Of a DNA stretch of 40,772 bases, positions 14,433 to 34,913 are shown in pieces; within the stretch, counting starts at the first letter, position 1, and every line of letters begins with the position of its first letter. Source of the DNA: Saccharofermentans sp. (GTDB lineage Bacteria > Bacillota > Clostridia > Saccharofermentanales > Saccharofermentanaceae); NCBI GenBank assembly GCA_024682215.1, contig JAIKZM010000210.1, forward strand, positions 1-40,772, read 5' to 3'. The translations under genes and the position numbers were made by a program. The notes under the pieces are model-generated. The model had not been told where the DNA came from, made no database searches, and saw nothing but the letters and a program-made list of their open reading frames with translations.

Positions 14433-14443
14433 CATCTTTGCCT

Positions 14444-14656
14444 ATGTTTGGCAGAAAGAATCCGACATACTCATTGGATGAATGGGAGCCTGTCATCAGG
14501 TCTTCCATTTGCACGGGTGAGAAAGTCGCAGGCTTTAAGAACCGTCAGAGCGGAGTGTTTGAGGATATTATGCTTATCCAAACTCCCGGTGATATTGAGG
14601 AGTTTCGCAGGAAATACAATATCAGTGCGGATACGAGGATCCCGACCATCTATTGA
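14444..14656 (+). CDS. Small conserved protein, unknown function
   Basis: A 70-residue soluble protein starting MFGRKNPTYSLDEW. It contains RSSICTGEKVAGFKNRQSG, then a hydrophobic DIMLI stretch and a charged tail. It resembles from memory a family of tiny Clostridia proteins sometimes mislabelled aspartate dehydrogenase; nothing in it looks like an enzyme. A TTG six bases upstream in frame is an alternative start, and neither has a clear ribosome site. It lies between rsfS and comEA, where Bacillus has yqeM and comER. A phased TGTCGGT array begins 13 bp after its stop. Confidence 0.6.
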   Translation: MFGRKNPTYSLDEWEPVIRSSICTGEKVAGFKNRQSGVFEDIMLIQTPGDIEEFRRKYNISADTRIPTIY

Positions 14657-14668
14657 GTGACATGTTTT

Positions 14669-14705
14669 TGTCGGTAATTGTCGGTCTTTGTCGGTAAAAA
14701 CCAGT
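14669..14705 (+). repeat. 10-bp-phased TGTCGGT array upstream of comEA
   Basis: TGTCGGT occurs at 14669, 14679 and 14689, exactly 10 bp apart, and a degenerate fourth unit AACCAGT is at 14699 in the same phase. One face of the helix is therefore marked four times just before comEA. A near-identical array lies upstream of recA at 33608. The array could be a protein-binding operator or, if transcribed, an RNA element at the 3' end of the small gene. Confidence 0.8.
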
Positions 14706-14717
14706 GCCAGACCGTGA

Positions 14718-14723
14718 TATGCT
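14718..14723 (+). promoter_or_regulatory. Possible -10 box of comEA, leaderless
   Basis: TATGCT ends 6 nt before the comEA ATG at 14730, and no Shine-Dalgarno is visible before that ATG. If used, the transcript would begin at or next to the start codon. The box matches the consensus at four of six positions, and the -35 region falls in the phased array, so an activator may replace the -35. This is inference. Confidence 0.35.
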
Positions 14724-14729
14724 TTTGGC

Positions 14730-15443
14730 ATGTTACGAAATATCAGAAAGATCAAACCATATCTTTATCCTGCGGCATTCATTCTGATCGCGGGCTTTGC
14801 GTTCGTCTACAAGACGGCGCTTAAGGGTAATGCGGATTATTTTCTCAGCACTTACAGGAGCGGAAAACAGACTGCGGTTACTGCCGTCCGGACTCCGGAT
14901 GCATCCGGGACCGTAACAGAAAAAACTGCATCTGAAGCATCTGCGGCGGCACCTTCGTCCGAAGCCGTTATGACGGTGCAGGTCTATATCTGCGGTGCAG
15001 TAAACAAGCCCGGTGTATACAGCGTTATCAGGGGAACGATACTTAATGATGCGGTCGAAAAGGCGGGCGGTTTTACTGCGGACGCGGCAGTTACGAGCAT
15101 GAACCTCGTATATGAGATAAATTCCAACATGTCATTTTACATACCGACCGTTAAAGAGGTTGAGAGCGGCAATGCTCAGGATGCCGGTGTGATCCGCGGA
15201 AAGGATGACTTCATCTGGGGTTCTGAAGGCGGAGCTTCTCAGTCAAAGACTTCCGGAAAAGTGAACATTAACACGGCAGATCAGGCGGCACTTCAGTCGC
15301 TTCCGGGAATAGGCGAGGCAACTGCCAGGATGATAATCGAATACCGCAATAAGACGCCGTTTAAAAAGCCTGAGGATCTTAAGAAGGTCTCAGGCATAGG
15401 CGATGCAAAGTATGAAAGAGTGAAGGCGTTTATAACCGTCTGA
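14730..15443 (+). CDS. comEA: Competence protein ComEA (DNA receptor)
   Basis: Membrane-anchored double-stranded DNA receptor for transformation. A single N-terminal transmembrane segment (about residues 10-27) is followed by a Ser/Thr/Ala-rich linker. Next comes an SLBB-type domain (VQVYICGAVNKPGVYSVI) and a C-terminal helix-hairpin-helix pair beginning VNINTADQAALQSLPGIGE. The length of 237 residues fits ComEA. The ATG at 14730 has no obvious ribosome site. comEB and comEC do not follow; instead the gene abuts birA tail-to-tail with no spare base. Natural competence of this organism cannot be judged from this gene alone, because HhH-SLBB proteins also occur without it. Confidence 0.9.
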   Translation: MLRNIRKIKPYLYPAAFILIAGFAFVYKTALKGNADYFLSTYRSGKQTAVTAVRTPDASGTVTEKTASEASAAAPSSEAVMTVQVYICGAVNKPGVYSVIRGTILNDAVEKAGGFTADAAVTSMNLVYEINSNMSFYIPTVKEVESGNAQDAGVIRGKDDFIWGSEGGASQSKTSGKVNINTADQAALQSLPGIGEATARMIIEYRNKTPFKKPEDLKKVSGIGDAKYERVKAFITV

Positions 15444-33597: not shown

Positions 33598-33607
33598 CTT
33601 GCGTCTT

Positions 33608-33634
33608 TGTCGGTTTTTGTCGGTAAAAGCCGGT
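33608..33634 (+). repeat. 10-bp-phased TGTCGGT array upstream of recA
   Basis: TGTCGGT at 33608 and 33618 is followed at 33628 by the degenerate AGCCGGT, all 10 bp apart. It matches the array before comEA, including the shared tail TTTGTCGGTAAAA(A/G)CC(A/G)GT. It lies 66 bp upstream of the recA -35. It begins 11 bp after the stop of the 38-residue ORF, similar to the 13 bp seen at comEA. Confidence 0.8.
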
Positions 33635-33699
33635 AATGCCCCTGAAACAATATGTTCTGTTTTGTAAGAAATTGTACCATTATTGTCGCACTTATTCTG

Positions 33700-33728
33700 T
33701 TGACAAAAGTGTATCATAACAATAGAAT
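33700..33728 (+). promoter_or_regulatory. Promoter of recA
   Basis: A perfect TTGACA (33700-33705) and TAGAAT (33723-33728) with 17 nt between. Transcription should begin near 33735, just before the SOS box. Confidence 0.82.
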
Positions 33729-33742
33729 TAACTCATAAATAA

Positions 33743-33754
33743 GAACAAATGTTC
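33743..33754 (+). promoter_or_regulatory. SOS box (LexA/DinR operator) of recA
   Basis: GAACAAATGTTC matches the Gram-positive LexA consensus GAAC-N4-GTTC perfectly as an inverted repeat. It sits about +8 to +19 relative to the predicted start site, so LexA would block clearance or elongation. recA is therefore very likely damage-inducible here. lexA itself is not in the window. Confidence 0.88.
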
Positions 33755-33776
33755 AACGCATTGATTGGAGGCTTTT

Positions 33777-34913
33777 ATGGCTAAGAGTAAGAATTCAACC
33801 AAGGGCTCGGTAGCGCCTGTACAGGATCAGAGCGAGCGCAGGAAGGCACTTGATGCCGCAATGGCACAGATAGAGAAGCAGTTCGGCCAGGGTGCCGTAA
33901 TGAGACTTGGTGACCAGACTCACATTGATATTGAGACTATTCCTACCGGTGCACTGACTCTTGATATAGCACTCGGTATCGGCGGACTTCCCAGAGGAAG
34001 GATCGTTGAGATCTACGGACCTGAATCTTCAGGTAAGACAACCGTAGCGCTTCACTGCGTTGCAGAAGCTCAGAAGCAGGGCGGTACATGTGCATTCATC
34101 GATGCAGAGCATGCTCTTGATGCCAATTATGCTGCAAACATCGGTGTAGATATCGATAACCTTCTCCTTTCACAGCCTGATACAGGTGAGCAGGCGCTCG
34201 AGATCTGCGAGACGCTTGTTCGCAGCGGATGCATTGACGTAGTAGTTATCGACTCCGTTGCAGCACTCGTTCCGAGGGCTGAGATCGAAGGCGAGATGGG
34301 TGATTCTCATGTAGGACTTCAGGCAAGACTCATGAGCCAGGCGCTCAGAAAGCTTGCTCCTGTCGTAGCCAAGTCCAATACAATCTGCATCTTCATCAAC
34401 CAGCTCCGTGAGAAGGTCGGCGTTATGTTCGGTAACCCCGAGACTACTCCTGGTGGCCGCGCTCTTAAGTTCTATGCTTCTGTCAGACTTGATGTAAGAA
34501 AGACCGAGACACTCCGTAACGGTACTGATGTAATCGGTAACCATACCAGAGTTAAGGTTGTTAAGAATAAGGTTGCTCCGCCGTTCAAGGAAGCTGAATT
34601 CGATATTCTCTACGGTAAGGGCGTTTCTTCAGAAGGCTGTATCCTTGATCTTGCTGTTGAGAATAATATCGTAGACAAGAGCGGATCTTGGTTTGCATAC
34701 AAGGGCAATAAGATCGCTCAGGGTCGTGATGCGGCAAAAGCATACCTTATCGATCATCCTGACGTAAGAGAGGAGATCGAGACTCTCGTAAGAGAATCTT
34801 ACATGCCTGCTGAAGATGATGATGCGGATGCAGCGGCTCCTGCAGCTTCTGCTGATAAGGCAGCAGCTCCTGCAGCAGAAGAAGATGACGATATCCTCGG
34901 TATCGATCTCTGA
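33777..34913 (+). CDS. recA: Recombinase RecA
   Basis: ATP-dependent strand-exchange protein for homologous recombination, LexA co-protease activity and uptake-DNA integration. Walker A is GPESSGKTT and Walker [11 protein letters not shown]. The loop-1/loop-2 regions [21 protein letters not shown] and [21 protein letters not shown] are intact. The C-terminus is acidic ([11 protein letters not shown]), as usual, after an Ala-rich stretch. The ATG at 33777 is 5 nt after GGAGG; an in-frame TTG four codons earlier overlaps the ribosome site and is rejected. 378 residues. The leader carries a promoter and a LexA box. recX follows after a terminator-like hairpin. Confidence 0.98.

Follow-up and report, generated by a model that had tools for sequence, protein, structure and literature searches.

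In Saccharofermentans sp., the array of TGTCGGT boxes ahead of comEA is, with a probability of about 80%, the place where an activator acts on a competence promoter; the activator would be a receiver-less protein of the class of Spo0A, which elsewhere initiates sporulation. We also favour, with somewhat less assurance, the broader proposal that this Spo0A-derived protein, present as a single copy throughout its clostridial order, acts as a master activator of natural competence that had not been recognised before. It would read lineage-specific versions of the 0A box and switch on a Tad-pilus DNA-uptake regulon with leaderless comEA and comEC mRNAs. No earlier description of such an array and regulator was found in the literature searched, and the searchable literature yielded no account of how competence is controlled in Clostridia. 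The analysis provides a cis-element, a gene set and one candidate regulator, all of which are directly testable.

Two arrays in the analysed contig

The window is the whole 40,772-nucleotide stretch analysed (contig JAIKZM010000210.1), and all features in it are given on the forward strand. Three exact TGTCGGT units, which resemble the 0A box, lie on a 10-bp period at 14669-14675, 14679-14685 and 14689-14695, as the initial annotation had reported from the sequence. The first is farthest from the -10 element and the third, judging from the sequence and the alignment of arrays, abuts the expected -35 position. The positions given for the array also proved correct: it starts 13 bp past the end (14656) of a 72-aa ORF (14438-14656) that is not part of the element, and it ends 25 bp before the ATG of comEA (14730-15443), which according to the ORF and a domain search encodes a 237-aa protein with SLBB and helix-hairpin-helix domains. 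The degenerate fourth unit described there (AACCAGT, 14699-14705) is in phase, but it matches TGTCGGT at only 3/7 positions and is probably not a functional box, because a fourth unit is kept in only 6 of 112 arrays genus-wide. Counted from the initial T of TTGTCGGT, the -10 box, TATGCT (14718-14723), lies at an offset of 50 bp, which is conserved at comEA in relatives. In the window as a whole TGTCGGT occurs 10 times; dinucleotide shuffling gives an expectation of 3.6 occurrences, and none of 100 shuffled sequences had more than 8.

A second array, absent from the initial annotation, spans 33608-33624 upstream of recA (33777-34913; PF00154, E = 1.2e-143), which is the second regulon member in the window. 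Its two boxes (33608-33614 and 33618-33624) are followed by a degenerate third unit, AAGCCGGT, at 33627-33634. The region upstream of recA (33606-33760) holds, besides the array, a separate sigma-A-type promoter, TTGACA-17-TAGAAT (33700-33728), and a LexA/DinR-type box, GAACAAATGTTC (33743-33754), both read from the sequence. The recA genes of relatives have a further set of boxes between the array and the TTGACA promoter with its LexA-type box.

A regulon of DNA uptake, pilus and recombination genes

The exact pair TGTCGGT-N3-TGTCGGT occurs 10 times, in seven arrays, in the 2.63-Mb genome to which the window belongs, and the reversed control pattern does not occur. Searches allowing up to two or three mismatches, combined with inspection, gave 11 clear arrays with 0-2 mismatches; one two-mismatch match (C13) was taken as chance and is not counted among them. 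Each of the 11 lies upstream of recA or of a gene of the competence, pilus or nuclease-like kind, and they are not scattered at random across the genome, the outcome that had been named as speaking against a regulatory site. Apart from comEA and recA in the window, arrays front comEC (L006; PF03772, E = 1e-24), comM/YifB (L015; Mg_chelatase match), a Tad-type operon whose first gene encodes a 327-aa protein in the tadZ position, followed by genes for a T2SSE ATPase and a T2SSF protein (L080), an operon of Tad pilin-like proteins that follows pheT (L081), and five paralogues of a nuclease-like family of 250-270 aa (L079, L083, C136, C170 and C222). A single cis-element is common to genes for DNA uptake, pilus and recombination, as is characteristic of a competence regulon, and it is close to certain that the element and its regulon are real.

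No Pfam or NCBIfam family was found for the nuclease-like proteins or for the 327-aa protein. The nuclease-like family (members include L079, L083, L075:1163-1951, L017 and L018) has a conserved E...PDF...E pattern and weak similarity both to PD-(D/E)XK nucleases and to the C-terminal end of the PDC-S68 candidate defence proteins. A structure search with a model of a nuclease-like protein gave no confident match, with PD-(D/E)XK nucleases among the weak ones. In the pilus operon, one pilin-like protein (L081:4654-5652, minus strand) has a C-terminal restriction-endonuclease-like domain (PF21111, E = 1.4e-10), and perhaps it is a nuclease borne by the DNA-uptake pilus.

Within the genus, a pair of boxes with at most one mismatch is present in 35 of 59 genomes. 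Exact pairs were found in 25 of 99 relatives, all of them within the genus, with one control match. Scanning 84,980 species genomes for three units yielded 71 stretches. Almost all of these came from rumen MAGs labelled Saccharofermentans, Mageeibacillus, 'Ruminococcaceae' or Clostridiales; exact matches also turned up in a few genomes that are unrelated (Vibrio, Planobispora and others). When the genes downstream of arrays in the genus are clustered, the same classes recur: nuclease-like, tadZ-like, pilin-like, comM, recA, comEA and comEC. Relatives do have the array upstream of comEA; its absence there in close relatives had been put forward as grounds for rejection. The gene set of the regulon and the presence of the array at comEA in relatives support the original idea of a helically phased site for a competence regulator, for which we now have a candidate in a protein with a predicted Spo0A_C domain.

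Promoter geometry and predicted leaderless starts

Geometry was derived from 112 arrays, in which positions 0-7 and 10-17 are near-invariant TTGTCGGT as a consequence of how the search was built. In 79 of them the third unit agrees at six or more of eight positions. Of the 112, 66 have a TANNNT motif 49 or 50 bp from the array start, compared with a mean of 3.4 and a maximum of 7 for neighbouring offset pairs, and the -10 boxes are TATAAT-like (TATGCT, TACAAT, TATTCT, TAAGAT). The expected -35 falls at about offset 27, directly after the third unit. The suggestion that the array takes the place of a -35 in front of TATGCT stands, since array promoters have neither TTGACA nor another -35 hexamer at that position and the offset of the -10 is fixed across arrays.

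The ATG is placed exactly 6 nt past the -10, with no Shine-Dalgarno sequence, in comEA of seven species, comEC of four species and many nuclease-like genes. A leader that includes a Shine-Dalgarno sequence is the usual arrangement at comM and the tadZ-like gene. We predict that comEA, comEC and many of the nuclease-like genes are transcribed as leaderless mRNAs in this lineage of Clostridia. For comEA in the window (14718-14732), the prediction follows from the ATG 6 nt after TATGCT and the lack of a Shine-Dalgarno sequence; L082, L088, L093 and others show this layout too.

Relation of the box to the Spo0A box

The genus-wide core of the box is TTGTCG, in the versions TTGTCGAA, TTGTCGGT and TTGTCGTT, and TTGTCGAA arrays are present in other species. 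At the comM promoters of distant species the 10-bp period and the TTGTCG core are kept and the tail varies (TTGTCGAAAA in G030, TTGTCGNAAA-type in G001, TTTGTCGTTT in G014); two distant relatives, G013 and G021, have no boxes at comM. Spo0A binds tandem boxes 10 bp apart that adjoin the -35, as at spoIIG, and in structure 1LQ1 its tandem dimer occupies direct repeats on a 10-bp period, as found in the array. The tandem 0A boxes of the spoIIG, spoIIE and abrB promoters in Bacillus and Clostridia have the TGTCG core in common with the array, and the box adjoins the -35 of a sigma-A-type promoter in both cases. Compared with the 0A box TGTCGAA, TGTCGGT keeps T1, G2, T3, C4 and G5, which is an agreement in sequence only. 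Spo0A specifically contacts G2, C4 and G5 of TGTCGAA (PMC3485338), and all three are retained in the array box.

A candidate regulator

The regulator was predicted from the box, and the Spo0A_C domain (PF08769) was then searched for. It is present in one protein each in 41 of 59 genus genomes, including that of the window, and among 14 control genomes only in B. subtilis. No genome has more than one match, and the matches inspected form a short family. In the genome of the window (G000) the candidate is a 178-aa protein (contig C129, L260:1249-1785) in which about 75 N-terminal residues precede the DNA-binding part, and it scores 32.3 bits (cut-off 25) over positions 3-66 of the 104 in PF08769. 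A family profile (alignment A1) finds one protein in 56 of 59 genus genomes. Across the order it has matches in 180 of 188 genomes, nearly always a single match per genome. Searched against the PDB, the family has two credible relatives and no others: 1fc3 (E = 3.4e-6) and 1lq1 (E = 7.4e-6), both effector domains of Spo0A.

All 19 aligned family members match Spo0A_C and none of the 19 has a Response_reg match to indicate a phospho-receiver, the N-terminus being only about 75 aa long. The full-length Spo0A model TIGR02875 gives 24.7 bits, where the cut-off is 200. Given that no receiver is detected and that the score falls below the equivalog cut-off, the candidate is not a Spo0A, though it would act like one at a tandem-box promoter. 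The residues aligned with R214 and R217 of Spo0A are invariant and that aligned with E213 nearly so; the numbering of this E-R-x-x-R motif comes from an alignment with B. subtilis Spo0A, whose sequence agrees with the 1lq1 alignment. Two Asp residues of the N-terminus (D20 and D51) are also invariant. By eye, and with no profile support, residues 14-55 of the L260 protein in alignment A1 (VVCSDLSLLENINALL...GVISI...HYIIDGR) have the look of a shrunken receiver, and it is speculation that the N-terminus with Asp20 and Asp51 is one.

The order of genes at the locus is conserved (5-FTHF cyclo-ligase, a 143-aa protein, regulator), with a convergent HU gene beside the regulator in nearly all genomes. 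There are no array boxes upstream of the regulator gene, and for this reason autoregulation via the array was rejected. The family-profile search found no candidate protein in G006, G022 and G045, of which G006 (array-rich and 97% complete) and G022 carry arrays. Because a credible match to the neighbouring 143-aa gene was also lacking in all three, the locus is likely missing there and may be unassembled. In sister families the candidate protein is present and exact TGTCGGT pairs are absent.

Variation in the box can be compared with variation in the regulator. In G049 and G054 the regulon (comEA, comM, tadZ-like, pilin-like and nuclease-like genes) carries TTTGTGAG on the 10-bp period, with 14 matches and no control matches in G049, and in their regulators Ser stands at the position of E213, as it also does in that of the relative G143. 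The lineage of G051, G044, G031 and G036 has Val at this position and no TTGTCG-type arrays; upstream of comM all four genomes have a TTTTCGTA...TTCGGAGC-type pair in common, and searching this lineage for triples of a generic TTTKTNG pattern gave no matches. The TTGTCG box is kept in G014 (Lys) and G053 (Ala). Given these two genomes and a strict per-genome Fisher p of 0.13, calculated on genomes that are not independent and with only two lineages carrying the association, the covariation of box and E213-position residue in these sequences is suggestive. Together, the box and helix variants offer a natural series for studying the evolution of DNA specificity.

Proposed mechanism and alternatives

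Tandem TTGTCGGT boxes, normally three on a 10-bp period directly upstream of the -35 position, probably constitute an activator site. Each box would take up one subunit of the receiver-less Spo0A_C protein, with successive subunits arranged head to tail along a single face of the DNA. The bound subunits would contact RNA polymerase and stand in for a -35 element, which is how Spo0A works where it occupies 0A boxes in tandem. On this model competence throughout the order would have this protein as its master activator, and the regulon would be driven by it directly. Binding is inferred, and we regard the Spo0A_C protein as the likely reader of the array. Counting against this reading are the three genomes in which the protein was not found, the changed residue with an unchanged box in G014 and G053, the sister families that have the protein but no exact TGTCGGT pairs, the missing boxes at comM of G013 and G021, and the lack of an array at the regulator gene.

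Another binder of direct repeats could in principle read the same activator site. OmpR/PhoB-type response regulators, with 7-bp half-sites about 11 bp apart, and small head-to-tail polymerisers resembling BldC/MerR are common in Clostridia, and both the regulon and the geometry would suit any head-to-tail activator that replaces the -35. However, the core of the box is that of the Spo0A box and, we presume, not that of a known PhoB or BldC box. The single-copy Spo0A_C protein is also present in nearly every array-bearing genome, and its recognition helix is altered in both lineages with an altered box, all of which makes a different binder unlikely. A site that switches the regulon off is more doubtful still. 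Spo0A can act as a repressor and not only as an activator (PMC3297582), but boxes that lie upstream of the -10 and abut a -35 position without a hexamer have the usual layout of an activated promoter, on which ground a repressor-only site was rejected.

The alternative raised in the initial annotation was an RNA element belonging to the 3' end of the small gene. Such an element could be a terminator, a processing site or a protein-binding site, and the closeness of the window array to the stop of the small gene would fit it. A divergent upstream gene is, however, present at 30 to 37 of the 112 arrays (e.g., ychF/comM, engB/comEC), and such an element is excluded as a general explanation because this is so for at least 30 of them. 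With the -10 at a fixed downstream offset and start codons locked to the -10, the array is a promoter element and not an RNA element, and we give the latter very little credence. The least probable reading is that the decamers have no function and arose by mobility or slippage. The repeats being exact tandem decamers, and the exact matches in Vibrio, Planobispora and a few other unrelated genomes, speak for it, but the gene specificity across the genus refutes it, reversed-pattern controls are near zero, and the variant box is conserved in the same gene classes.

Comparison with known systems

The activator proposed here shares with Spo0A a homologous DNA-binding domain with the E213/R214/R217 helix. 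It differs from Spo0A in having no recognisable receiver and in matching about 64 of the 104 Spo0A_C model positions, and the array differs from the 0A box in its tail (GGT instead of GAA) and in its targets, which are competence, pilus and recombination genes. Spo0A~P controls comK in B. subtilis, where the Spo0A DNA-binding domain acts on competence (PMC3297582), as we propose here. There, Spo0A acts upstream at comK and comK then activates the late genes, whereas the boxes described here lie directly at comEA, comEC, recA, comM and the pilus operons. This suggests that the DNA-binding half of Spo0A may have parted from its phospho-receiver and been put to a new use, the direct activation of DNA uptake.

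In the ComK regulon of Bacillus, one activator joins DNA uptake and recA, which also keeps a LexA promoter; here too one element links DNA uptake and recA, and recA has a LexA-type box. ComK has a different protein fold, and its K-boxes are AT-boxes, AAAA-N5-TTTT. A ComK box was rejected, since the promoters carry TTGTCGGT arrays and, by eye only, no AAAA-N5-TTTT pairs were seen at the array position. The SigX/ComX CIN-box, with its TACGAATA-type -10, was likewise rejected, the -10 boxes being TATAAT-like. Micrococcus luteus needs its tad genes for transformation and, as here, combines a Tad pilus with comEA/comEC; it belongs to a different phylum, and the available portion of that report describes no TTGTCG array or Spo0A-type regulator (PMC8467076). 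From the regulon one would predict that a Tad pilus serves DNA uptake in uncultured rumen bacteria.

Other array-fronted genes

Several further arrays precede genes of other kinds. Those of L112, L074, L158, L180 and L204 lie ahead of a conserved 196-aa protein (MSTTTNEQQKGQSKPEMTKMAYDF...) to which no function was assigned, and those of L113 and L196 (G006) lie ahead of a membrane-anchored protein that by eye looks like an HNH-type nuclease. Single arrays precede a very short hydrophobic peptide (L070) and, with the TTTGTGAG box, a gene that resembles a BrnT-type toxin (L336).
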